Assembly: GCA_945876035.1 (NCBI GenBank) | Contig: CAMCMU010000026.1 | Coordinates: forward strand, 1 to 64,000 | Direction of reading: 5' to 3' | DNA length: 64,000 nucleotides | Source: Schlesneria paludicola DSM 18645 | GTDB taxonomy: Bacteria > Planctomycetota > Planctomycetia > Planctomycetales > Planctomycetaceae | Translations under genes and position numbers: made by a program | The notes under the pieces: generated by a model | Database searches by the model: none | Seen by the model: the letters and a program-made list of their open reading frames with translations, nothing else | What the model was told of the DNA's origin: nothing | Shown: piece after piece, positions 49,509 through 64,000 of the stretch | How positions within the stretch are numbered: the first letter of the stretch is position 1 | Layout: each line of letters starts with the position of its first letter

Positions 49509-49889
49509 ATGTCAGATCAAACCCGAAATGAAATTGAAGCGGCACTGGACGGGGTCGCCCCCCATCGGCGCGATTTTCTAAGGAGCCTCTTGATGGCTGG
49601 TGCAGTGGCATTGACGCTCCCCGCATCAAGCCTCCTTGCCGACGAGGCTGAGGGGACGGGCAAAGGCAAAAAAGGCAAAGGCAAAAAAGGCAAAGGTGGT
49701 GATGGTGATGGTGATGGAGGTGGTGATGGTGATGGAGGAAAAGGAAAAGGAAAAGGAAAAGGAAAAGGAAAAGGAAAAGGCGACGGCAATCTGTCGCAAA
49801 CACTCCGCAGACCGGGAACGGCTGGCGGTGATAGGAAAGGGAAATGCGACGGTCGAGTTGGGAAAGGCAAGAGTCAAGGCCGCGTCTAG
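49509..49889 (+). CDS. Tat-leader Gly-Lys/Gly-Asp repeat protein, candidate modified peptide
   Basis: This is a 126-residue frame beginning MSDQTRNEIEAALDGVAPH (ATG at 49509; AAGGAAA upstream). Residues about 20-40 form a twin-arginine signal (HRRDFLRSLLMAGAVALTLP) ending near SSLLADEAEG. What follows is almost entirely repeats: GKGKKGKGKKGKG, then GDGDGDGGGDGDGG, then a run of seven Gly-Lys pairs encoded by (GGAAAA)7, and a tail with further GKGK, RKGK and one Cys. The mature part is nearly free of hydrophobic residues and cannot fold conventionally. A PqqD-methyltransferase fusion gene follows 188 bp later, suggesting this is its substrate. The function is not known. Confidence 0.75.
   Translation: MSDQTRNEIEAALDGVAPHRRDFLRSLLMAGAVALTLPASSLLADEAEGTGKGKKGKGKKGKGGDGDGDGGGDGDGGKGKGKGKGKGKGKGDGNLSQTLRRPGTAGGDRKGKCDGRVGKGKSQGRV
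49737..49778 (+). repeat. (GGAAAA)7 microsatellite inside the Gly-Lys gene
   Basis: Seven perfect hexamers GGAAAA each encode Gly-Lys in frame. The length is a multiple of three, so gain or loss of units changes the number of Gly-Lys pairs without a frameshift. The upstream Gly-Asp segment is a similar but less perfect GGTGAT-type tract. Confidence 0.95.
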
Positions 49890-50077
49890 ACTCAGACACG
49901 CTCTGTGGAGGGTTTCTGGACCCTCACTCGAAAGAGCGAACGAAAGGTTTCCGCCTCGATGTTTCATAGTCTTGGTGGAGACAGGAACACTGTTTTTTGT
50001 GTGCTGAATGGTTTTGGCGAGCGGGCAACCATTTGTGGACCTCGGTTTGCCGGATCGACTTTTGACGCGTGTGCCTC

Positions 50078-51984: not shown

Positions 51985-54201
51985 ATGAGTCGCTGGCATT
52001 GCATCCGCGTAACGTGGTTTCTCGTCTGTGTTGCCGCATTGTCGGGTTGCGGAGCCGTCGCCTCAAAACCATCGGCGACGGAGGATGCGACCGCCGTGCG
52101 GCCGAGCGAGAAATTCGAGACGGCGATAAAGATTGCAACCCTGTATTTCAATGACAAGGAGTACGATCGGGCCGAGGCGGCGTTGCAAGCCGCATTCACG
52201 GACCCGTCGGTGACCCCAACGGCCGAAGCCAAAGCGTTACTCAACGCCATCAGGACTGCGAGGCGTGCGGCTCCGGTTTCGGCAACACCACCGGGGTCGC
52301 CTCAAACTCCGTCACCACCGATTGTGGCCCCGCCAGACGTTTCCAGCAGCCTGACAAACTCTCCCAGCGAACCATCCGTGAGTCCACCGGCGACATCGGA
52401 GCCGAAGCCCAACCCGCCGGGCCAGACGTCCGTAGATGTCGTCATTGTTGAGGATCAGACGGAGCCAGAGGCACCCTTCGTTCAGACGCCAGCGACAGAG
52501 GCCATGATCGCCAAATTGGAGGCCCGACTGGAAACAGAGAATGAAGCGATCAACACCCTCAAAATCTATGAACGATTTGTCGAGCGGCATCCGCTGACGG
52601 CGGAACAGGCGAAAAATTTCGCTCCTCGATTGGAGAAGTGGCGGGACCTCGCTGGCAAGAAACTCGTCCGCTGGGGAACGCAATGGATTGCCCCGGAATT
52701 GGCCCGGCAGAAAAAGGCTGAAGCAGAGGCACTGATTGACCAGGCGCTCACGCAGATCCGACTACGGAACTTTAAGATGGTTGCCGAACTCCTCGAAAAA
52801 GCGAGCCGAATTGACCCGAACGCGATCAGTGCGCACTTCATTCTTGGTCTCCTGAACTCGGGAGCCATAGGCGTCAATCACCCGCCGACCGCTGAGGAAC
52901 ATTTTCGGAAGGTCTTGGTCCGATCGCCACAACACATTTCTGCGTTGAACAATCTCGCGCTGACGGAGATCAAACTCGGAAAGTACCCGCAGGCCTTGAT
53001 GCATTTCACGCAAGCCGCAGAAATTGCACCATCCACTCTCCAACTCAGTCAGAATATCGGCCGTGTGATCAAGGAAGCCGCGGCCCGTAAACTGATTATT
53101 CCTCCAACGCTGTTGTTAAAATTCGCCAAACTGTATGCCGAACTGACGAACCCTGGGACGACTTCGTTGTCAGACAAAATTCGAGGTTGGTTGTACATGC
53201 CTCTGTATCTGCCGGAGAACGAACGAAAGGGTCGACCAACCAAAGATGTGCGGAATGAGGGTGAGTTGGTCATGACGGCAACTGGGTCTGGATTTGTCGT
53301 CTATCCTGGATACGTGCTTACAAATCGACACGTTGTCCGAAGCGAGGAGTTCGGTGTAGGGGAACTGAAGATTGTGGATCCGACTGACGACAAACACAAA
53401 CGCGAACTCCCCGCAACCGTGGTCGCGATCTCCGCTGACCATGACATTGCGTTAGTGAAGTGTGATGCAATTAAGTCACCTGCGATTCCGTTGAGCATTG
53501 CAGCTCCAAGACGCGGAACCGAAATCCTTGCACTCGGTTATCCACAAGTCGATCTCATTGGTCGGGGACTCAAGGCCACGCGAGGTATTATCACGGCCCT
53601 TCCAGAGGACGCTAACGAGGGAATGCTGTTGTTTGATGCGGAACTCAACCACGGCAACAGTGGAGGGCCGGTTCTCGACAAAACCGGAGCGGCGATAGGA
53701 GTGGCAACAACCAAATACAATGCCGCGATCGTGGGGAACTACAGCGGAGGCGTTCCTGTTGGCAGGGTGATTCCGTTCGTAAAAACAATTCTGCCCAGCT
53801 TTGTGAGTGCCCCCGTTTCCACTGTTGAGAAGAGTTGGCCCGATATCGATGCCCAGGTCGCTCCCTCAACAGTGATGCTGTTATGTTACTACCCGTCCGT
53901 CGCCGTGAGTGTCAACCCGGCACCCTCCAAAGGTGGGTCCAAGGTGAGTGGGGACTTTTACGAAGACTTCAGCTGTATTGTCTGTCAAGGGTCGGGTGTC
54001 CGGGCGTGCCCCAATAAAAGGTGTGTCAAGGGTGAGGTTTCGAGACAAGAAAAGTATCAAGAAAATATCGGCATTGCGGAAAAATTAATCGTCAACAAGA
54101 CGCGTCTTGTCAAGTCGGATTGCCCTGTGTGTCACGGGCGAGACCGGGTGGATTGTGGTGCCTGTTCGGCCGGCCGTGACACCCGATTTCTTGGCCGGTA
54201 A
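51985..54201 (+). CDS. TPR / trypsin-like protease / DnaJ-type zinc-finger lipoprotein
   Basis: This is a 738-residue lipoprotein: the lipobox LSGC places the lipidated Cys at 22. A Pro/Ser-rich linker follows, then TPR-like helices at about 250-370 (HFILGLLNSGAIGV, SALNNLALTEIKLGKYPQAL). A S1C/HtrA-like protease domain has His449 (TNRHVV), Asp487 (DHDIALVK) and Ser559 (HGNSGGPVLD), all present. The C terminus has two CxxC-x-G-type zinc modules (CIVCQGSG and CPVCHGRD, with ACPNKRC and CGAC) like the DnaJ zinc finger. It lacks the PDZ domains of DegP. ATG start. It lies upstream of the GTPase operon on the same strand. Confidence 0.88.
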   Translation: MSRWHCIRVTWFLVCVAALSGCGAVASKPSATEDATAVRPSEKFETAIKIATLYFNDKEYDRAEAALQAAFTDPSVTPTAEAKALLNAIRTARRAAPVSATPPGSPQTPSPPIVAPPDVSSSLTNSPSEPSVSPPATSEPKPNPPGQTSVDVVIVEDQTEPEAPFVQTPATEAMIAKLEARLETENEAINTLKIYERFVERHPLTAEQAKNFAPRLEKWRDLAGKKLVRWGTQWIAPELARQKKAEAEALIDQALTQIRLRNFKMVAELLEKASRIDPNAISAHFILGLLNSGAIGVNHPPTAEEHFRKVLVRSPQHISALNNLALTEIKLGKYPQALMHFTQAAEIAPSTLQLSQNIGRVIKEAAARKLIIPPTLLLKFAKLYAELTNPGTTSLSDKIRGWLYMPLYLPENERKGRPTKDVRNEGELVMTATGSGFVVYPGYVLTNRHVVRSEEFGVGELKIVDPTDDKHKRELPATVVAISADHDIALVKCDAIKSPAIPLSIAAPRRGTEILALGYPQVDLIGRGLKATRGIITALPEDANEGMLLFDAELNHGNSGGPVLDKTGAAIGVATTKYNAAIVGNYSGGVPVGRVIPFVKTILPSFVSAPVSTVEKSWPDIDAQVAPSTVMLLCYYPSVAVSVNPAPSKGGSKVSGDFYEDFSCIVCQGSGVRACPNKRCVKGEVSRQEKYQENIGIAEKLIVNKTRLVKSDCPVCHGRDRVDCGACSAGRDTRFLGR

Positions 54202-54503: not shown

Positions 54504-55073
54504 ATGTCCGGGGTTTCTCGGATCGCGGTCTTGATCCTATGCTGCGGTTCGCTGTGTCTCGAGGGTTGCTCGGGATGCCGAGCCATTTCACCAGAAGTCC
54601 CCCAGCCGGAATCGTCAACGCCGGATCAGCCGCTTTCGGATCAGACTGCGAAGATTCCACTTGAGAGTCCGCCTGACAAGGATTCGGCGTCCCCGGTGTC
54701 TGCTCCAACCGGCACGGAAACACCAGCGGGAAAAGAGACCTCCGAGGCTTCCCGATCTTCGGCCTCTGCAGCGGGCGACGAGGCCAAAGAGGTCTCTCCA
54801 AGTCCGCGTCAATCCGGGGACGCGGAATCGGCCTTGAAGTCGGCGACATCTTTGCGAGACAAGGCTCGGCAGGCAGCGGCTCGTCAGGACTATGGGATCG
54901 CATTCGATCACACGTCTCGGGCGTGGGAGTCCGCTAGCGTTTGGCCGAAGGATCCTCGGCTGACGAGACTCGCCGCAGAATTACTCGCCGATTTGGAAAA
55001 GTTCGGTGAGCAAGCCAATTTGAAGTTCTCGGATCGGGCCAACAACTCCAGCACAAAGCTCATCGACAAATGA
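54504..55073 (+). CDS. Small Ser/Pro-rich lipoprotein
   Basis: This is a 189-residue protein from the ATG at 54504, giving a lipoprotein signal (VLILCCGSLCLEGC) with Cys at 22; starts at 54438 and 54240 are in frame. A low-complexity Ser/Pro/Thr/Glu linker of about 90 residues follows, and the last 70 residues are helical (ATSLRDKARQAAARQDYGIA), resembling a TPR hairpin. No catalytic motif is seen. It probably opens the GTPase operon as an outer-leaflet component. Function unknown. Confidence 0.6.
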   Translation: MSGVSRIAVLILCCGSLCLEGCSGCRAISPEVPQPESSTPDQPLSDQTAKIPLESPPDKDSASPVSAPTGTETPAGKETSEASRSSASAAGDEAKEVSPSPRQSGDAESALKSATSLRDKARQAAARQDYGIAFDHTSRAWESASVWPKDPRLTRLAAELLADLEKFGEQANLKFSDRANNSSTKLIDK

Positions 55074-55128
55074 CGTCCCACGCCCTACCCCGAGGATAGG
55101 ACGTCACCACACATCACAGGCGAACACC

Positions 55129-56430
55129 ATGACGATGACTGCTAAAATTCCCCGACCGGCAGGTCTCTTGCCACGCGTCACATGCCCGCACTGCTGGGAG
55201 CAGTGCGTACCCGAGAAGCTGTTGTGGATTTCAGAACACACGGATCTCTTGGGAGATCATCGGCTTGGTCCTGAGCAGGCGCAACGCTTTCTTCCAACGA
55301 GGTTCACTGTCAGTGGCGAAGCAATCGACGCCAAGGGTTTTCCGTGTCATCAGCTGGCGTGTCCTCATTGTCATCTCACCATCCCCCGTGCGCTATTGGA
55401 GCTGGAGCCACTGTTTCTTTCGATCTTCGGAGCGCCGGCCAGTGGGAAATCGTACTTCCTCGCTGCGTTGACTTGGGAACTGCGCAAGACTCTGCCGTTG
55501 GTGTTTCGCCTAGGGTTCGCCGACGCCGATCCGGTTCTCAATCACCAACTCCATGAGTACGAAGAGTCCGTCTTTTCCGGATCATCGACCAATGAACTCG
55601 TGCCGCTGGGCAACCTGATTCGTAAGACGGAAGAACAGGGCGACTTGTACGATACGGTCTCCTTCGGCAATCAGACGGTCAGTTATTCGCGTCCCTTTGT
55701 GTTCACATTGCAGCCGCAGCAGGATCATCGCAACGCGCATAACGCAGCGAAACTCGCACGGACTGTTTGCCTGTACGACAACGCAGGCGAATCGTTTCAG
55801 CCGGGCAAGGATTCGGCGGCGGCTCCGGTTACGCGGCACATGGCATTGTCGCGTGTTTTGTTCTTCGTGTTCGATCCGACGCAGGACGCGCGGTTCCAGC
55901 GATTGATCGGAAAGCCGTCGGCCCATTCTGAATCAGCCGCTCGGACTATGCGGCAGGAGCCAATTTTGCAGGAAGCCATTGCCCGTATTCGTCGCTTCGC
56001 CGGGCTGAAGCAGTCGGAGCGTCACAAGCGACCGTTGGTCGTGATCCTCACAAAATACGATGCGTGGCGGAACCTGCTCGGTCGCGAGCCGCCACCCGAT
56101 CCATGGCAGCTGGCGCGCTCGGCCTCGAATGCGGAGGTCACGTTCAATGCATTCGATCTGAATGCCGTGGCCAAGCAGTCGCAGTTAGCTCGCGAAATGC
56201 TGCTACAGACCTCACCCGAAATTGTGACTGCCGCCGAAGGCTTTGCCGAGGACGTGACCTATGTCCCCGTGACCGCGGTGGGCTGGAATGTGTCCACCGA
56301 GAGGAAGTCGGGTCTACCCGCAATCAAGCGGTCTGAAGCGATACCGTATTGGGCGACTGTGCCGTTTCTGTACGGATTGTCCCGTGCGATTCCCGGCCTG
56401 ATCCCGACCATTTCCCAGAAGAGCCGTTAG
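55129..56430 (+). CDS. Zinc-ribbon TRAFAC-type GTPase (DO-GTPase-like)
   Basis: This is a 433-residue protein. An N-terminal zinc ribbon uses CPHC at 19-22 and a second CPHC at 78-81. The P-loop GAPASGKS is at 101-108, a Walker B/G3-type DNAGE at 217-221 and the guanine-specificity motif TKYD at 308-311, with an alpha/beta core in between. From memory this matches the double-GTPase-2 / TRAFAC-clade GTPases that occur beside GAP1 proteins in predicted bacterial conflict systems. No membrane segment. It is followed 43 bp later by the GAP1-like gene, with which it probably forms a complex. Confidence 0.85.
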   Translation: MTMTAKIPRPAGLLPRVTCPHCWEQCVPEKLLWISEHTDLLGDHRLGPEQAQRFLPTRFTVSGEAIDAKGFPCHQLACPHCHLTIPRALLELEPLFLSIFGAPASGKSYFLAALTWELRKTLPLVFRLGFADADPVLNHQLHEYEESVFSGSSTNELVPLGNLIRKTEEQGDLYDTVSFGNQTVSYSRPFVFTLQPQQDHRNAHNAAKLARTVCLYDNAGESFQPGKDSAAAPVTRHMALSRVLFFVFDPTQDARFQRLIGKPSAHSESAARTMRQEPILQEAIARIRRFAGLKQSERHKRPLVVILTKYDAWRNLLGREPPPDPWQLARSASNAEVTFNAFDLNAVAKQSQLAREMLLQTSPEIVTAAEGFAEDVTYVPVTAVGWNVSTERKSGLPAIKRSEAIPYWATVPFLYGLSRAIPGLIPTISQKSR

Positions 56431-56473
56431 CGACGGCACTCGGTTCGACCCCTGTGACCGAGGAGGAACAATC

Positions 56474-59116
56474 ATGAGCCAAGAACTGCTGTACACGTCG
56501 GCACCCCGCGGTCTAAAGCCGGGAAGTCGCGGCTTCTGCACGGTTCTCAGCACGCAAGGCATGCCCGCACCACTGGCGACGGCACTCGAAGGACTGTCCG
56601 GCTATCGTCTGATCTCCACTGCGGGAGACAAAGGTGCGAATCGTAGTCCGATCGTGTACTCACATCTCATCCTGCCGGCGGGCGGTCGTACATTGAACGT
56701 CCTGTCGCGGATCGCTGAGTTTGGGTTGGATTATTCGCAGCGAGCGAACAAGTTAGCGCACCATGTGGTTCTGGACAAGACGGAACTGCTGCCGGGGGGT
56801 CCGGCCAACCTGCTGTCGATGCCGGACTTCATGCGTGAGCAGTGGCAAGGCGAGCCCAAGGTTGTTGCCTTCAAGCCCGTCAAGCGTGAGGGCCGCCTGC
56901 CGAGCGGCCCCTGCCGCGCGTGGGAGGAGCGAACCGGCGACGCAGGCTGGGCCGGTGTTCTCGCCGAATCGTTCTTGCGTGATCCAGAACGGCTGGTCTT
57001 TCTGATGTTCGCACCGGGGCAAGAGATTCTGCCGCTGTTCGCCGAAGCGTTATCGCTGCTTCCCGTCGAGAGACGCTGGAACGTGACGTTCAGCACGTAC
57101 TTCACCGGCCTCGTACCGGGCACGACTTGCGTTTGGCGAGCGATGGTCTACGACTCGAAGGAGGCGCACGAATCGCTCCGCTTCGTGCAGGCGCTGCGTG
57201 TCGACCTCACCTCCGGCTCGCTCGGTCCCGCCCGGGGCGGCACACTCGTCGAGGCCGCACGCACGGGGACCAGACCCCACGATTCCCCCCGCCCTGCCCG
57301 CTCGCTCGCGTCCACCGACGAAGAATTCGTCGAACTCGAAACGGCTCACGTGGAGTTCGCCTCTGATGAAAAACCAGCGGAGGACATCCAATTCACCGGT
57401 GCCCCACCAGCCCCACCGCAACTCGCCCCGAACGGCTACCCGCTCCCCAAGCTCGCTGCCCCGACCCCACAACCGAAACGTCGCAGCTTCGCCGATGAAG
57501 TCGAAAAAGACACCCGCCGCGCGCCCTCCCGCCGTTGGCTCTGGCTCACCCTGACCGCCGTCGTCCTGATCATCGCGACTTTGTTCGGGGTCGCGAACAT
57601 CTCGTCGAAACCGAATGGGATAGCGGAGGCTCCTTTGGATCGCGCTGTGCCATCAGCGGTGGAGGGGCCCAAGCAAAAGAAAAACGACGGCGTGGAGCTG
57701 GCTTTGAAGACGTCTGAGCAAAAAAAGGAAGATTCAGCGCCCCCGAAAGTTGATCAAGAGGAAGAGGAAAAAACTGAGACAACTGATCCTCTGGCACCTC
57801 ACTCCGCGCCGTCTGCCGGCCCGGCTCCTAACGGTCCAGCAGACGGTCCAGCAGACGGTCCAGCAGACCGTCCGGCAGACGTGCCGGCAGACGTGCCGGC
57901 TCCAAAGTCTCCACCCAAGTTGGTCAACGAGGTAGTAGATCTTCCGAAGAAAGATAAGCCACAGATCACCAAACTGCATTCAATCGATGCTTCGGCTGGT
58001 GAAAACCCTCCGAAAATATTGCTGCTACTGAAACCCAGTTGGCTGCCTTACACGGATGCCGAACCGACCTCGGTACACAAAAAGGACTACGCAGCACAAA
58101 GAGCGATCACGTGCGAGACGACCGCCGGGCCGATATCGATTGCACTCTTCACTTTCGTTGTGAAAGAAAAAGTGGGTTTGTTCAAACTGAAGTCGCTCGA
58201 CGACAATCACACACGGTGGCTCGGTTGGTACCGAATTCGTGTTCTCTCTCCCAATGCGCAGGATCCGCCGCTCAAGGACCTCAGTTTCACCAGTTTTCCG
58301 CTAGACAAGACAACGCTGGAACGAAACTTTGGCGAGAAGACAACTATTGTTTGGAAGTTGCCAAACACTGCCGCCGTCGATAAAAGCCACCTGCCTAAAC
58401 TCATTCTCGACCGACTGATCGTCCGAATTTCTGGCACTCGTCGTTCGCTCGATGTGACGCCACTCGACGAGCAATCGACTTGGAAAGCCAGCCTTGCGGA
58501 GTTTGCGACTGCCAGCCTTGCCGAGTTTGCGACTGACAGCTACTCGAAACTCGGAGTTGACTCCCACGGTTCATCGCCACTGGCTGTGACGCTCGGGGTC
58601 AATACGGATACGGACACGGCCGCGATTGAGTTGAAGCTGTCCGGTAAACACAAGTTCCTGAATGCGTTGGAAGGTGCCCTAGCAAAAAGTCTGTCCGCTC
58701 TGAGGTCGGACCTCACCAAGCTGTGTGAATTGGATTCCGACCTCAAGCAAGCCGTTGAGGCCCAATTCAAAGGACTCTCCGTCACCAGCAACCCGGGGGC
58801 GGAGGAAACTCTGGTCGTGACGGCTACGATTGGCGAGCAACTCGTAAAGCTGCGTGCTGAGTCAAAGAAAAAGAAGGACGAGGAACGTGGCAAGGTACTC
58901 GATGAGGTCGATGCTCGTGTGGCAGAATTAGAAGCGTTGTTCATTCGCATCGTTGAGTTCCGCAGCGTTGCGAAGTCGCTCGACAATGTAGAGGTCGCGT
59001 CGGCTCGTATCTACTACGTGTTGAAAGACACGAAGAAAAACTCAACACTCTCTGTCGATGTCGATGTCGTGAACTTTGACGGCACGGCGAAGGACGATGC
59101 CGAGCAGAATCCATAA
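56474..59116 (+). CDS. GTPase-associated protein 1 (GAP1)-like membrane protein
   Basis: This is an 880-residue protein with a very strong AGGAGG ribosome site. Residues about 1-250 match what I recall of the GAP1 N-terminal domain: ELLYTSAPRGLKPGSRGFCT, LSGYRLISTAGD, LPAGGRTLNVLSRIAEFGLD and RRWNVTFSTYFTGLVPG. A Pro-rich linker (250-350), one membrane helix at about 354-376 and a second low-complexity linker with GPAD/VPAD repeats follow. The C-terminal ~400 residues are a mixed alpha/beta extramembrane domain of no recognised family. The protein would connect a cytoplasmic GTPase-binding head to an external domain. It is encoded between the GTPase and the coiled-coil gene. Confidence 0.82.
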   Translation: MSQELLYTSAPRGLKPGSRGFCTVLSTQGMPAPLATALEGLSGYRLISTAGDKGANRSPIVYSHLILPAGGRTLNVLSRIAEFGLDYSQRANKLAHHVVLDKTELLPGGPANLLSMPDFMREQWQGEPKVVAFKPVKREGRLPSGPCRAWEERTGDAGWAGVLAESFLRDPERLVFLMFAPGQEILPLFAEALSLLPVERRWNVTFSTYFTGLVPGTTCVWRAMVYDSKEAHESLRFVQALRVDLTSGSLGPARGGTLVEAARTGTRPHDSPRPARSLASTDEEFVELETAHVEFASDEKPAEDIQFTGAPPAPPQLAPNGYPLPKLAAPTPQPKRRSFADEVEKDTRRAPSRRWLWLTLTAVVLIIATLFGVANISSKPNGIAEAPLDRAVPSAVEGPKQKKNDGVELALKTSEQKKEDSAPPKVDQEEEEKTETTDPLAPHSAPSAGPAPNGPADGPADGPADRPADVPADVPAPKSPPKLVNEVVDLPKKDKPQITKLHSIDASAGENPPKILLLLKPSWLPYTDAEPTSVHKKDYAAQRAITCETTAGPISIALFTFVVKEKVGLFKLKSLDDNHTRWLGWYRIRVLSPNAQDPPLKDLSFTSFPLDKTTLERNFGEKTTIVWKLPNTAAVDKSHLPKLILDRLIVRISGTRRSLDVTPLDEQSTWKASLAEFATASLAEFATDSYSKLGVDSHGSSPLAVTLGVNTDTDTAAIELKLSGKHKFLNALEGALAKSLSALRSDLTKLCELDSDLKQAVEAQFKGLSVTSNPGAEETLVVTATIGEQLVKLRAESKKKKDEERGKVLDEVDARVAELEALFIRIVEFRSVAKSLDNVEVASARIYYVLKDTKKNSTLSVDVDVVNFDGTAKDDAEQNP
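57833..57892 (+). repeat. 12-bp tandem repeat in the GAP1-like gene
   Basis: Three perfect GGTCCAGCAGAC units and two variants (CGTCCGGCAGAC, GTGCCGGCAGAC) encode GPAD-GPAD-GPAD-RPAD-VPAD, placed just after the membrane helix. Such a linker can vary in length without breaking the frame. Confidence 0.9.
58487..58534 (+). repeat. 24-bp tandem duplication in the GAP1-like gene
   Basis: Two adjacent 24-bp units differ at one base and encode the octapeptide ASLAEFAT twice. It looks like a recent in-frame duplication within the external domain. Confidence 0.9.
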
Positions 59117-59136
59117 GCGGAGAAAGGGGCCAATTA

Positions 59137-62088
59137 ATGACTGAGATTCAGCGAGTGGTGGATGAGTTGCGGTTTTTGCTTCAGCGGGAAGTTGTCGAGC
59201 AGACGGATGAGTTGGCGGATCTGGTGCGCGAGTATTCAGCTCACTGTCACACGGCGAACGTGCGGCTGCGGCGGGGCAATGAGTGTCTCAAGCAGGGGCT
59301 GCGGTCCGAGGCGCTGCATCTGGCCGAGGCTGCGCCGAACTTGTTGGACGTCGTCGCGATTCTCGACTTTGCCGAATTAGATCAACTGCTCGAAGTCGTC
59401 TCTATGTATTTCTTGGCGCCGCCTGAGCCCCTATTGCTCGATGTCGCGTCGGCGCTGAACGAGGCGTATGCGCAGCAAGAGCCGTTGCAAAAACTGCTCG
59501 ACTTGCACCGTCTGCTGGCGCTGGGCCGCAGTCCGCTGCCGCAGCGGATTACGATCCTGCGGTCGCTCGCCCAACTCGATGCCGAGTCGCCTCATTGGGA
59601 AGCGGATGTGCGCGACATGGAACGGGCGCGGTTAAGCGAGATGGATGCTGAGTCGCGCACTGCTGCCGCGCGCGGTGATGTCGCTACCCTCAAATTACTC
59701 TGGGCCGAGACTCAGGATGAAAACTGGTACGAAACCGTTCCGGCATCATTGCTAAAGACCATCAAGTCGCGTTCCGGCCAAACAGTGCGTGGCAATGCTC
59801 GAGAGCGGATGGCAGAACTGGAGCCAGAACTCTATGCCGCATACTCGGCTCTGGATGTCGTCCGAGCGAGACCTTTGCGAGACGAGTGGAATCAGAAGCA
59901 GCAGACGGTCCAACTGGCCAAAAACGATCCTCTGTGGGAACAGGTTGCTCCGATTCTTGACTGGTTAGAGGATGAAGACCGCAAGCTGGAGACGGATCAG
60001 GCCTACTCAAAAGTGGTCGGCGCCATTGAACGGGCGATGGACAATGACGAGCTATCTTTGGCGGATCTCAAACGGCTGGGATTGTCTTTGGATCGTCTCG
60101 ATCGGAGTTTGCCGGCGTCACTGGAAGGTCGCTATCGCAATCGCCTGATCACGTTGGACGTGAAGGAGTCACGTCGTCGCCGATTTCTCGTTGCGGCGGG
60201 TCTCGCCGCGTTCGTGGCCGTCGTTGGCGTTTTCGGTGGGATTGTTTCCATCTCTTACGAAGCGGAAAAGACACGCACTCGGATCGCTGCCGTGGACGCC
60301 TTCATCACGGATGGCAGTTTGGACGAGGCCCGCAAACTGATGGAACAACAGCCGACCGCATTGACTTCCGAATCTTGGCTGGCAGCCCAAAAAAAACTGA
60401 TCGATGCCGAGCAGTCGGAGGAGAATCGAAAAGCGGAGTTGAAGGCGGAGATGGAAACTGTGGCACAATCGACCGAACCGCCGCGAATCGAAGCCGCGTT
60501 CACGCGGGCCCGTGGACTCGCAAAAACGTCCGATGAGAAAATTGAACTTGGCAAGTTACAACGGACGTGGCAGCAGCAAGTCAATAAAAGTACGGCCGCA
60601 CGCGAGCAAGAGTTTCGTGAACGACTGGCCACGGCTAGCCGTTCGCTGCAGGCATTGGATCAGGCTGCAGGCCAGAAGGACTCGCCGAACCTTGATGATT
60701 TGAAGGTATTACTGAGCACGGCGGAAGCGGATACCGAGCAACTGCGTTTGTCGCGTGGATCCGTTGCCAACGAACTCGAATCACAAGCCTCATTGCTCGA
60801 TTCGCGATTAGAGGCCTCGCGACAGACGCTGGCCGGTCTGACTCGCAAGCAGGGCCTGTTGGACAAGTTGACCGATTCGACGTTGCTGCTGGGAACCGCT
60901 GAGGGGAGTTCCAAAGCAGGTGTTTTCGAGGTCACACTGCGCGAGTTCGCGACCGTTTTACCGCACGATCCGCTGGCGGCAACGCTGAAGGCGGCGGCCG
61001 AAACATCCCCGATTCCGTCGGTGCTGGAGCGTCATCGATTGATCGATCGGTGGTCGAGTCTGCGGACGATCAACCGCAAAGATGTCGAGACACGTCTTCG
61101 CGACATCGCCGCCTTCTTCAAAGAGCATCCGGCCAGTCCTGATCGTGACGTCATCAGCCGCTATCAAACCTGGCTGGCTTCGATTCAGCGGCGTTTCATT
61201 GATGACGGGGACCCCGACAACGGAGCACAACGACTTATGGGGACTCTGTTCAGCCGAAAGCTCATCGGTGAGAGCCACACGCTGTGCGATACGGAGGAAC
61301 ACACGTACTACCTTTCCGAATCGAGAAATGAACCCTTTGGGGACGTAATCAGTTTTGAATATCTGTACGGTTTTAACGGCGACAAGCGTCGGATAACGTT
61401 AAAGAAACCCAATATCCTGAAGACGCAAAAAACGGTCGCAGCCCCTCAACAAGAGATCGCCACCAAGGTTCAGACTACGATCCGTGATGTCGGCATGGAC
61501 GACTGGCAGAAGTATTTTCGAGAGATCACGACGTCCCTCTTGAAGGCGGATAAAATCGATCCATTTCTGCGATACTTGCTGGTCTTGAAGACACTCGAGT
61601 ATGCGAGCCTCGGTGATCAGTTCTTGGATCAGGAACTGGCACCGGTGCTGATGATGTTGAGCGATAACGATGTAGACCGAACAGTCGCGTGGATGGATCC
61701 GTTGAACAAAATGGCGGACACGGCGCGGAAACAGGCTCAAGCATTGTTGGCGAAGATGCCGCCTCTGGAACCGATCTTCGCCAACGCCGCGAAACGTCAG
61801 CAACAGCTCGAACGCGACTTATTCGCCCGCCGATTCTCGATTGGCTGGCTGGAGAAGACGAGTCGCGGTGGGTGGATCTGTCGGACAAAGTGGCCGCCGG
61901 TTAGCAATCACGTACTCTACGCGGTCTCACGCCCAGATGCTGAAGGAAGGCGAGAATGGCTGATGTTGGGACACGTTCAGGACCCGTCGTTGACGATTGA
62001 TTCCACGGTCGCTCAGGCCGTTGGGGAAGCCGGCGTCGTGTTCGCTTCGGTGGCTCCCTCGGAAACCAAGATCGAGTTGTTGCCGTAG
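59137..62088 (+). CDS. Large single-span coiled-coil protein of the GTPase operon
   Basis: This is a 983-residue protein (AAAGGGG upstream of ATG). The first ~340 residues are helical and cytoplasmic in character (EALHLAEAAPNLLDVVAILD). One membrane helix lies at about 348-370 (FLVAAGLAAFVAVVGVFGGIV), preceded by a run of Arg, and then about 300 residues of Glu/Ala/Lys/Gln coiled coil (ENRKAELKAEMETVAQS, RERLATASRSLQALDQAAG). The last 250 residues are mixed alpha/beta. I recognise no family. It lies 20 bp after the GAP1-like gene, hence the same operon, and may be a transmembrane transmission rod. Confidence 0.8.
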   Translation: MTEIQRVVDELRFLLQREVVEQTDELADLVREYSAHCHTANVRLRRGNECLKQGLRSEALHLAEAAPNLLDVVAILDFAELDQLLEVVSMYFLAPPEPLLLDVASALNEAYAQQEPLQKLLDLHRLLALGRSPLPQRITILRSLAQLDAESPHWEADVRDMERARLSEMDAESRTAAARGDVATLKLLWAETQDENWYETVPASLLKTIKSRSGQTVRGNARERMAELEPELYAAYSALDVVRARPLRDEWNQKQQTVQLAKNDPLWEQVAPILDWLEDEDRKLETDQAYSKVVGAIERAMDNDELSLADLKRLGLSLDRLDRSLPASLEGRYRNRLITLDVKESRRRRFLVAAGLAAFVAVVGVFGGIVSISYEAEKTRTRIAAVDAFITDGSLDEARKLMEQQPTALTSESWLAAQKKLIDAEQSEENRKAELKAEMETVAQSTEPPRIEAAFTRARGLAKTSDEKIELGKLQRTWQQQVNKSTAAREQEFRERLATASRSLQALDQAAGQKDSPNLDDLKVLLSTAEADTEQLRLSRGSVANELESQASLLDSRLEASRQTLAGLTRKQGLLDKLTDSTLLLGTAEGSSKAGVFEVTLREFATVLPHDPLAATLKAAAETSPIPSVLERHRLIDRWSSLRTINRKDVETRLRDIAAFFKEHPASPDRDVISRYQTWLASIQRRFIDDGDPDNGAQRLMGTLFSRKLIGESHTLCDTEEHTYYLSESRNEPFGDVISFEYLYGFNGDKRRITLKKPNILKTQKTVAAPQQEIATKVQTTIRDVGMDDWQKYFREITTSLLKADKIDPFLRYLLVLKTLEYASLGDQFLDQELAPVLMMLSDNDVDRTVAWMDPLNKMADTARKQAQALLAKMPPLEPIFANAAKRQQQLERDLFARRFSIGWLEKTSRGGWICRTKWPPVSNHVLYAVSRPDAEGRREWLMLGHVQDPSLTIDSTVAQAVGEAGVVFASVAPSETKIELLP

Positions 62089-62160
62089 CAGCGGAATCCG
62101 GACCCAAAAGACTCGACGATCTCCAAGCCTCATTCCAACCTTGATAGACGAGACAACTCC

Positions 62161-62964
62161 ATGGCCGACACAGAGAACGGCACGACCTATTATATCCGGG
62201 TCCGCGGGCGAGTTCTCGGCCCCTACGACGTGGCTCAACTGAAGACTCTGCGCGGACGGGGACAATTCGGTCGCGCCAACGAAGTTTCGACTGATCGCCA
62301 GACGTGGCAATCGGCGGCGATCATTGAACAGCTGTGGGGCGGAACAAAGGTAACCGCCACAACGACTCGTCGGCAGGCCAAGGATGGGGCTTCGGTTGCC
62401 GACACAGCGGGTTCCGGACCGCCGAGCCCGACATTGACACCCGTTTGGCATTACGCTGTCGGAACGGAACACAGTGGCCCTGTGACAGTCTTGGAATTGC
62501 GAGGCATGATCGCCAGCAGTCAGTTGATGCCGGACGACAACGTCTGGAAGGAGGGCATGGCCGACTGGATTCCGATCCGCGACGTGGCCGAACTCAATGC
62601 GGTTGCGAAGTCGAACACCGGTGCCTCGGTGTCACAAACCACCTCCGGCACAATGGCCATGCAAATCTTCTGCTATGCCTGCGGCTCACCGACAGACGCG
62701 CGGGCCGAGGTCTGTCCCAAGTGTGGTGTCAGGCAGCCACAACACTCGGCCGCTTCTGAAAAGAAGCGAATGACTGCCGCTCTATTGGCATTATGCCTTG
62801 GAGGGCTTGGCGTCCATCATTTCTATCTTGGCAACACTCTCTTGGGCGTGGTCTATTTGTTGTTCTGTTGGACCTTGATACCCGCGATCATCGCCTTCAT
62901 TGAATTCATCATCTTCTTGTGCATGTCCGACGCAAGTTTCGCAGCCAAATACGGACGAAAATGA
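62161..62964 (+). CDS. GYF-GYF-zinc ribbon-TM2 protein
   Basis: This is a 267-residue modular protein. Two GYF_2 domains at about 9-60 (YYIRVRGRVLGPYDVAQLK) and 95-143 (HYAVGTEHSGPVTVLELRGM, VWKEGMADWIPI) bind proline-rich sequences. A zinc ribbon follows (Cys171, 174, 185, 188). The C terminus is a TM2 domain with two membrane helices (ALCLGGLGVHHFYLGNTLLG, then LIPAIIAFIEFIIFL). GYF domains could bind the Pro-rich linkers of the GAP1-like protein. ATG start at 62161, 72 bp after the coiled-coil gene. Confidence 0.9.
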   Translation: MADTENGTTYYIRVRGRVLGPYDVAQLKTLRGRGQFGRANEVSTDRQTWQSAAIIEQLWGGTKVTATTTRRQAKDGASVADTAGSGPPSPTLTPVWHYAVGTEHSGPVTVLELRGMIASSQLMPDDNVWKEGMADWIPIRDVAELNAVAKSNTGASVSQTTSGTMAMQIFCYACGSPTDARAEVCPKCGVRQPQHSAASEKKRMTAALLALCLGGLGVHHFYLGNTLLGVVYLLFCWTLIPAIIAFIEFIIFLCMSDASFAAKYGRK

Positions 62965-63037
62965 ATTGAAAGTTGAGCCGTTTCACCTCATGTCATCTCC
63001 CCGTCCGCCCATCGTCCACTCGATAAAGTGACCCTTC

Positions 63038-63916
63038 ATGCCTGTTCCCACTCACGCAGCGCCCGCAGTTCTGGAACCGTTGTCGTGGGCGCGCGATGAC
63101 ATCGAGCAGCAAATGCTATTTCGCGGTGGACGGTTTACACGCGTCAACTCGTGGTGTTCGTTTGCGCTGGCGGTGTTGATGACGTGCGCGTTCTATGCCG
63201 TCCTATTTCCATTCCGCAGCAACTTGATTGCCGGTAGCTTCTTCTTTGCGAGGAATCGAGAAACGCCGGCCTGCATCGTCTTTTTGTCCTGCTGGTCGCT
63301 GGCGATCCTCGGACTGAAGTGGAGCAAACTACGGATGCAGCGTCGTGCGCTGCAGTTCAGCATCGTTCCGGAAGATCCCGAGTTCGTTCTGACGCCTCAA
63401 ACGGTGGATGATGTCATGCAGCGGATCCACGAGTGCGTCGATAGCGCGCGGCAGTTCGTTGTGTTTCACCGGATTACGTCGGCGTTGGCCAACCTGCGAA
63501 ACTTGGGGCGTGTGACTGACGTGGACGAAATCCTGCGTGCGCAGGGCGAGACGGATGAATCGTCGATGGAGACGAGTTACTCGTTGCTGAGTGGCTTCGT
63601 GTGGGCGATTCCCGTGCTCGGTTTCATTGGGACGGTCGAGGGCCTGTCGATCGCAATCGGGGGGTTCGGCGGCGTGCTGGCATCGGCGAGTGACTTCGAG
63701 CTGGTGAAGACGGCGTTGCAGGGTGTCACAGGCGGTCTCTCGACAGCGTTCGAGACGACGCTGCACGGGCTGGTCGCGGCGTTGGTGATCCAGCTCACGA
63801 TGACGGGACTGAAGAAGGCGGAGGAAGAGTTCCTCGACGCCTGCAGCGAGTACTGCTCGAAGCACATCGTTAGCCGTCTGCGGTTGATGCCATTCGAGAT
63901 GCGGGGAGACGAGTGA
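63038..63916 (+). CDS. MotA/TolQ/ExbB-family proton channel protein
   Basis: This is a 292-residue protein with four membrane helices (about 40-57, 77-94, 185-209, 229-256). The paired helices 3 and 4, FVWAIPVLGFIGTVEGLSIA and GVTGGLSTAFETTLHGLVAA, are the ion-motor core shared by MotA, TolQ, ExbB and ZorA. In such pairs the stator pentamer surrounds a dimer of a single-span partner (MotB/ExbD), driven by proton or sodium flow. The next gene begins at the overlapping TGATG. It is the last complete gene in the window. Confidence 0.92.
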   Translation: MPVPTHAAPAVLEPLSWARDDIEQQMLFRGGRFTRVNSWCSFALAVLMTCAFYAVLFPFRSNLIAGSFFFARNRETPACIVFLSCWSLAILGLKWSKLRMQRRALQFSIVPEDPEFVLTPQTVDDVMQRIHECVDSARQFVVFHRITSALANLRNLGRVTDVDEILRAQGETDESSMETSYSLLSGFVWAIPVLGFIGTVEGLSIAIGGFGGVLASASDFELVKTALQGVTGGLSTAFETTLHGLVAALVIQLTMTGLKKAEEEFLDACSEYCSKHIVSRLRLMPFEMRGDE

Positions 63917-64000
63917 TGTCACGCCGTGGCAGATCGGGGCCGACAATCTCCCTCTTTTCGTTTCAGGACATCATCACGTCAGTGACCGCGATTGTGACCG
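63916..64000 (+). CDS. MotB/ExbD/ZorB-like protein, 5' end only
   Basis: Only the first 28 codons are inside the window: a basic start MSRRGRSGPTISLFSFQDII leading into a hydrophobic helix (TSVTAIVT). SLFSFQDIITSVT is a recurrent beginning of planctomycete partners of MotA-type proteins, and the short cytoplasmic lead plus helix fits a MotB/ExbD single-span protein. The ATG overlaps the preceding stop by one base, implying translational coupling. Confidence 0.75.
   Translation, partial: MSRRGRSGPTISLFSFQDIITSVTAIVT

Follow-up and report, generated by a model that had tools for sequence, protein, structure and literature searches.

Why should a zinc-ribbon GTPase and its GAP1 partner be encoded in one operon with the parts of a MotA-type motor? 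This question is raised by a stretch of Schlesneria paludicola DSM 18645 DNA (GenBank assembly GCA_945876035.1), here called the window, which comprises bases 1–64000 of the 66516-base contig CAMCMU010000026.1 in a draft genome of 4.71 Mb. Eight genes on the + strand, each lying 20 to 73 bases from the next or overlapping it slightly, extend from 54504 to position 65663 of the contig, in the order small lipoprotein, DO-GTPase2, GAP1 protein, a 983-residue single-span protein that we call P983, an adaptor with GYF, zinc-ribbon, and TM2 domains, MOTA, MOTB1, and MOTB2. A preliminary description of the window had listed these genes on one strand with small gaps up to the start of a MotB-like frame; Pfam matches and open reading frames bear out every gene that it named, and the sequence beyond 64000 that it called for completes MOTB1 and adds the paralogous MOTB2. 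Because the same gene order recurs across many genomes, the operon is more than a chance grouping. Motor parts linked to a GTP-burning switch by one membrane-spanning protein suggest an envelope machine under the control of that switch, and we propose, in a reading whose chances we consider evenly balanced, that the operon encodes an envelope motor, driven by ions and gated by the GTPase, that operates in the manner of the Agl-Glt machinery of Myxococcus without belonging to it. The GTPase/GAP1 pair, planctomycete GYF partners, and the motor superfamily are already known. In open-license papers, leaving aside subscription journals and the supplement of PMC7159879, we came across no account of a link to the motor, of P983, or of the modular split described below; the authors of PMC7159879 (Kaur et al.) may list such neighbors in that supplement. 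Experimental follow-up of GAP1/DO-GTPase systems likewise did not appear among the six papers found to name them.

The two halves of P983

In the window, P983 consists of a helical GTPase-side half (residues 1–351; 59137–60189, + strand), a membrane helix that joins the halves (residues 352–370; 60190–60246, +; hydropathy 2.45), and a motor-side half (residues 371–983; 60247–62088, +) with long helices and helical repeats in an AlphaFold model of mean pLDDT 84. A single membrane helix at about residue 350 was found in all six full-length P983 proteins checked. The protein had been described beforehand as a coiled-coil rod; the model instead combines helical repeats and long helices with two beta regions (residues 714–756 and 900–972) and is not one rod.

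The strongest sign that the two halves of P983 serve two modules, which the full-length protein couples, is that the protein is repeatedly split near the helix. N-terminal halves of 373–439 residues are encoded at 11 distinct GTPase/GAP1 loci (L034, L052, L124, L127, L128, L129, L131, L137, L138, L140, and L141), none of which has a local MOTA gene (0/11; the sequence extends downstream for 4 kb or more at 7/11). When the C termini of five of them were read, four ended no more than 6 residues from the helix, and that of L052 continued for about 70 residues; on its own, the N-terminal half occurs as a tail-anchored protein. C-terminal halves are encoded at six motor loci without a nearby GTPase (L160, L161, L172, L173, L174, and L177), match the P983 profile from about position 285–289 onward, and have MOTA and two MOTB genes downstream at all six; for the four examined, between 66 and 197 residues separate the helix from the annotated start (start codons being uncertain). 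Further, four genomes (G394–G397) show a split state in which a locus with GTPase, GAP1, full-length P983, and GYF genes is set against a separate locus with C-half P983, MOTA, MOTB1, and MOTB2.

On a GTPase tree of 80 rows, built by a quick method and containing several long branches, the N-half state changes four times, one change concerning L180, whose P983 is diverged and full length. Local motor presence changes at least 14 times over the 65 rows scored, a count that does not separate gain from loss. The first of these results indicates that the halves of P983 were joined or parted on more than one occasion, close to the helix, and the second that the pairing with the motor was made or lost repeatedly, yet the gene order is unchanged. 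Full-length P983 looks like a bridge between the GTPase and the motor. We note that, at L055 (2835–5532), P983 lies in two overlapping frames, because of a frameshift or because its halves are naturally separate there.

Linkage of the motor to P983 and the GTPase

In a phylum sample of 392 genomes, GAP1-N2 was detected in 41, P983 in 26, and MOTA, at an E value of 1e-10 or better, in 85. We refer to MOTA proteins scoring over 320 bits as class I (the lowest in this sample scores 342.8 bits and the next best protein 238.5 bits), and these occur in 22 of the genomes. A relative of P983 lies upstream of class I MOTA in 22/22 cases, either directly or with a GYF gene between; together with the appearance of P983 as a fusion of both halves, this upholds the earlier proposal that the operon is a single system, which withstands the test that the preliminary description set for it. 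Both GTPase and GAP1 are present in the same stretch at 17 of the 22 loci. Of the remaining loci, L077 has no nearby GAP1 match and, of the GTPase, only a partial frame of 159 residues, L159 and L162 are interrupted by contig ends, and L160 and L161 carry only the motor-side half of P983 with no nearby GTPase. Seen from P983, the association is looser: class I MOTA is missing from the P983-bearing genomes G270, G298, G155, G135, and G034, as well as from G104, in which the P983 match is weak.

A scan of public contigs with the GTPase alignment confirmed 428 relatives, and the best 80 were kept as loci; these best 80 come mostly from Planctomycetota and Victivallales/Lentisphaeria, with a few records otherwise labeled. 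The two sets together hold 66 rows with full-length P983 (L043 and L133 being one record), and MOTA lies downstream in 34. P983 is upstream of MOTA in 36 of 37 cases, the exception being L155, where MOTA is on the opposite strand to its GTPase. We also searched 24 chosen genomes, many of them incomplete, whose GTPase locus has no local MOTA, and found class I MOTA elsewhere in 6 of the 19 with full-length P983 and in 2 of the 5 with N-half P983 (over 320 bits, the next match scoring 217). The nine MOTA places in these eight genomes were inspected: four lie by C-half P983 without a nearby GTPase (L172, L173, L174, and L177), four lie by full-length P983 (L175, L176, L179, and L180), and L178 is cut at a contig end. 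The operon at L180 (4218–14791), in the genome of the Victivallales locus L147, is complete and diverged, includes the motor, and lies outside Planctomycetota.

Several findings weigh against the reading of the operon as a gated motor. Where 4 kb or more of sequence follows a full-length P983 gene, a local MOTA is present at 23/49 loci and missing at 26/49. The co-occurrence of GTPase and MotA-like genes in other genomes, raised in the preliminary description, is borne out in part: the pairing recurs in the same order, but most of these loci lack it. In 13 of the 19 genomes searched, many incomplete but one (G155) a single contig, the same search finds no class I MOTA anywhere, so full-length P983 must act without the motor too. 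Nor does an N-half P983 mark a motor-free cell, because two of the five such genomes searched (G412 and G413) carry class I MOTA elsewhere; none was found in the other three. A second class of MOTA, scoring about 145 to 240 bits, occurs with one or more MOTB-like partners and without any P983 or GTPase gene at eight loci (L163–L167 and L169–L171) from many planctomycetes, so MOTA/MOTB sets are not specific to the P983 system. The GTPase tree is poorly supported at 24 of 77 inner branches, topology was judged by hydropathy only, and the predicted folds of P983 and MOTB2 have no informative kin. Finally, the best NCBIfam match of the adaptor is GltJ of Agl-Glt (E = 4e-09, 36.1 bits versus a cut-off of 450), a match that covers only the GYF region (residues 63–148) and depends on that domain, which is a common module.

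Because the local motor is missing at those 26 of 49 loci, we conclude that the motor is an optional module. The same absence, and the existence of other-class MOTA genes with partners but no P983, would fit two independent systems sharing one operon, with P983 serving the GTPase core only and the motor trio merely traveling along. We regard this as very improbable: every class I MOTA in the phylum sample has its P983 relative, and motor loci free of the GTPase retain the C-terminal half of P983. We considered the second MOTA class as part of the same system and dropped it, given the gene content of the eight loci examined. The S. paludicola genome itself also holds a more distant MOTA/MOTB set (L168, contig C24, 3068–7826), likewise without a P983 or GTPase gene, encoding proteins of 488, 708, and 372 residues.

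The switch, the motor, and a proposed machine

The GTPase (433 residues; 55129–56430, +) has no membrane helix and matches DO-GTPase2 (PF19993, E = 8.3e-08, 32.6 bits versus a cut-off of 27). Its motifs are intact: in 23 rows, the window's included, the invariant residues are the zinc ligands C19, C22, C78, and C81, the P-loop residues G101, P103, G106, and K107, DNAGE at 217–221, and K309 and D311 of the K-x-D motif. Its nearest kin among the best 80 of the 428 relatives comes from an uncultured Schlesneria sp. (L080, 82% identity), and its profile finds only weak matches, such as Der/EngA, among PDB sequences. The GAP1 protein (880 residues; 56474–59116, +) comprises a GAP1-N2 domain (56474–56854, +; PF20013, E = 2.4e-25, 89.6 bits), a GAP1-M domain (56915–57211, +; PF20014, E = 2.3e-14, 53.9 bits), and, by hydropathy, a single membrane helix (57539–57595, +) that about 500 residues follow. 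The operon thus resembles the DO-GTPase/GAP1-N2 systems in the main text of Kaur et al. 2020 (PMC7159879) in its zinc-ribbon DO-family GTPase with a Walker B glutamate, in the GAP1-N2 and GAP1-M domains encoded downstream, in the GAP1 membrane helix, and in a planctomycete neighbor with paired GYF domains and a membrane region. It differs from them in adding a TolQ-type motor trio and P983; that main text, supplementary data aside, contains none of the words "MotA," "TolQ," "ExbB," "proton," and "zorya." GAP1-C and FNIII gave no Pfam match at an E value of 1 or better in the seven operon proteins scanned, nor at 10 or better in the C-terminal 101–107 residues of 10 P983 proteins; a diverged FNIII copy is possible because the FNIII repeats of these systems are described as evolving rapidly (PMC7159879, main text).

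The adaptor (267 residues; 62161–62964, +) has two GYF domains (GYF_2, E = 2.1e-24), a zinc ribbon, and a TM2 domain of two membrane helices (E = 3.8e-16). MOTA (292 residues; 63038–63916, +) is a TolQ/ExbB-type channel subunit (PF01618, E = 1.2e-09, 38.5 bits versus a cut-off of 22.9, the match ending at residue 264), and two TolQ sequences are the sole matches of its profile in the PDB up to an E value of 1 (E = 0.031). P192, G198, T199, G202, G233, T240, and T241 are invariant in 18 rows. MOTB1 (278 residues; 63913–64749, + strand, L002:914–1750) runs past the window's end at 64000, and MOTB2 (304 residues; 64749–65663, +, L002:1750–2664) follows directly, wholly beyond it. F17, Q18, and D19 are invariant in 17 rows of MOTB1 and D17 is invariant in 15 rows of MOTB2, and these aspartates are placed at the single membrane helix (residues 19–37 in both) or immediately ahead of it. 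The first of the two partners had been called MotB/ExbD-like: the membrane helix with its aspartate agrees with that name, but neither of the window's partners has a Pfam MotB, OmpA, or ExbD/TolR (PF02472) match at an E value of 1 or better. As each matches the other's profile, MOTB1 and MOTB2 are paralogues by sequence comparison, and an unequal two-part axle made from them is the natural reading. In TolQ/ExbB, conserved threonines line the ion path; T199, T240, and T241 of MOTA, D19 of MOTB1, and D17 of MOTB2 are predicted to form a conserved ion path here.

Searches with the less familiar proteins gave little, the fold searches not extending to the viral structure library. P983 has no Pfam family (noise only), and its whole model has no Foldseek match at an E value of 0.001 or better; a second structure search returned helical-repeat and spectrin-like rods (Z of at most 10.8, very large root-mean-square deviation (rmsd)) and was set aside as uninformative. 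When the MOTB alignments were scanned against Pfam, the matches listed (25 of 97 and 25 of 57 families) were for the most part coiled-coil noise, and the PDB matches listed for MOTB2 (60 of 253 rows) were likewise coiled coils. The MOTB2 model (mean pLDDT 82) likewise has no Foldseek match at an E value of 0.001 or better. The best row of its second fold search, an IS110-type recombinase (Z = 6.4, rmsd 3.2, 98 aligned residues), is followed closely by actin, ribosomal S11-type, and MOC1 rows; we rejected it as kin, the likeness being at most to an RNase H-like arrangement, and ExbD, TolR, and OmpA are absent among the rows listed. Extra MOTB1–MOTB2 pairs without their own MOTA precede a second GTPase operon in L125 (7470–9235), L130 (7437–9169), L132 (1644–3376), and L154 (7515–9253). 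In L038 (17616–18761), L039 (2559–3704), and L044 (17678–18823), an extra gene lies between MOTA and MOTB1; its start resembles a GYF domain and its later part weakly resembles part of GAP1, and these loci also have a second GAP1 preceding the GTPase.

From this conserved gene content we infer a physical complex with a 5:1:1 motor. MOTA, probably a pentamer, would encircle an axle in which a single MOTB1 is paired with a single MOTB2, and the flow of ions past the two aspartates would rotate the axle, as in other 5:2 motors. The cytoplasmic half of P983, residues 1–351 by the reading given here, would bind the GYF adaptor as well as the DO-GTPase/GAP1 switch, the membrane helix of P983 would join the motor, and its periplasmic half would relay force or position outward, to the outer membrane or the wall. 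Whether the motor engages would depend on the GTP state of the switch, which would then act like a clutch, and the mechanical output would most likely be surface or envelope work, such as adhesion, movement, or the organization of surface components. We favor a gating direction from inside out because the motor and C-half P983 exist without a nearby switch, as an ungated motor, and because AglRQS, a TolQ-class motor with two partners (PMC3169522 and PMC13104615), serves a surface machine under GTPase control. We put forward only tentatively a fuller formulation, a new type of bacterial nanomachine in which a single-span bridge physically connects the GTPase switch to an ion-driven rotary motor with an unequal axle. 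Such a machine would be a clutch that spans the inner membrane and is worked by GTP, with two modules that were repeatedly joined or separated at one helix in planctomycetes and relatives. Paired with a motor and with a bridge that divides at a natural point, the GAP1/DO-GTPase switch gains a concrete, testable output. If the bridge does couple GTP state to a rotary motor, this would be a second case, beside Agl-Glt, of a GTPase-controlled TolQ-class motor and would offer a handle on how planctomycetes operate their envelope.

Agl-Glt of Myxococcus xanthus is controlled by the small GTPase MglA, and its GYF-containing membrane adaptor GltJ, to which the GYF adaptor here may be compared, has a zinc finger and binds MglA. 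The two systems are also alike in having one TolQ-type subunit with two single-span partners, and they differ in that AglQ and AglS match PF02472 and the partners here do not (PMC3169522). Further, the GTPase here is of the DO type, with DO-GTPase models alone matching at an E value of 1 or better and none of the MglA type, and no other Glt protein was identified. A 2025 survey of MotAB homologues describes many uncharacterized nonflagellar forms and, in the available part of its text, makes no mention of "GTPase" (PMC12505986). With TolQRA and ExbBD-TonB, the operon shares a PF01618 channel with conserved threonines, an aspartate starting the partner helix, and a third single-span periplasmic protein. 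It differs from them in that its two partners are unlike and in that the third protein has a 351-residue pre-helix part that goes with the GTPase switch. The likeness of MOTA to TolQ/ExbB, and the existence of the motor with C-half P983 away from any GTPase, as expected of a transducer module, would suit a Ton/Tol-like energizer in which transport across the outer membrane or upkeep of the envelope draws its power from the motor together with the periplasmic half of P983, the role of the GTPase being regulatory only. We consider this unlikely: the window's partners have no PF02472 match, Pfam scans that included the C-terminal parts of 10 P983 proteins found no TonB/TolA C-terminal domain, receptor families are unmatched by the operon proteins in Pfam, and P983, which occurs in 26 of 392 genomes, is distributed more patchily than an upkeep role would suggest.

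Flanking genes and the question of defense

Upstream of the operon lies a gene for a lipoprotein with tetratricopeptide repeat (TPR) and trypsin-like (HtrA-type) domains and a C-terminal CxxC zinc-finger-like tail (51985–54201, +; Trypsin_2, E = 1.9e-25, with TPR matches), the lipobox and zinc finger being judged by eye. It ends 302 bases before the small-lipoprotein start, and its relatives adjoin the operon at other loci (e.g. L035, L060, L092, L146, and L175), so it is a possible upstream partner. The small lipoprotein (54504–55073, +) has a hydrophobic stretch near its start and no Pfam match; its open frame reaches back to 54240, and a start at 54504 gives a signal peptide with a lipobox, again by eye. 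Relatives precede the GTPase in L040, L079, L080, L083, L085, L095, L097, and L117.

The protease bears on whether the operon serves phage defense, acting from outside in like Zorya: envelope damage would turn the motor, P983 would signal to the GTPase and GAP1, and an effector such as the trypsin-like protease would fire. GAP1/DO-GTPase pairs are predicted conflict systems, with planctomycete GAP1-N2 systems with GYF proteins included (Kaur et al. 2020, PMC7159879, main text), so what the preliminary description stated on this point is in print. Distribution is patchy, with P983 in 3 of 9 sampled genomes of genus g3, and protease relatives recur near the operon. The window's protease matches the PADLOC families RT-Protease_XI (E = 8.6e-19), Avs1b (1.6e-08), and LmuA (5.2e-07), as expected of any trypsin-like domain. 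Zorya likewise combines an additional signaling part with an ion-driven motor, one that belongs to the superfamily of the motor here (PMC11890865). The Zorya-type link drawn earlier is nevertheless not supported by the components themselves: MOTA, at 292 residues with PF01618 reaching residue 264, lacks the long cytoplasmic tail of ZorA and matches it weakly in PADLOC (E = 0.0019 at best, to 0.28), MOTB1 and MOTB2 have no peptidoglycan-binding (OmpA-like) match at an E value of 1 or better, and ZorC, ZorD, and ZorE are absent from the nine operon proteins searched with PADLOC, the rest of the genome not having been searched for them.

The flanks of seven loci, that of G155 being motor free, were examined in 14 stretches of 15 kb (121 open frames) with PADLOC at an E value of 1e-10, a weak test in which the number of distinct proteins matched is not resolved. 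The flank proteins include single strong matches and transposases; 25 of the 40 families matched carry six names, PD-T4-6 (2.7e-90), mad6 (2e-70), UzuA (1.9e-65), DrmD (1.3e-43), C3a189, and MkoA, and, among the matches listed, no family is matched by more than one protein. Six control stretches with 72 frames also gave six names, from 8 families, the strongest being mad3 (9.6e-60). Pfam families in the flanks are mixed (amidohydrolases, sulfatases, DUF1501, PSD families, and transposases, among 25 of 121 families), and the ten upstream window genes tested are metabolic, regulatory, or housekeeping (PutA, a HemD fusion, Band 7, a protein kinase, and others). By this weak test, the flanks are not clear defense islands, and a role in defense is possible but not favored; we consider it improbable beside a GTPase-gated envelope motor. 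A scan for promoters and terminators gave results near chance, and a frame at window positions 49636–50007, whose low-complexity translation has VM/ME repeats and a long EK run, is probably no gene. About 420 bases after MOTB2, a fragment of a trypsin-like protein gene (contig 66087–66516, L002:3088–3516) begins and is truncated by the contig end.

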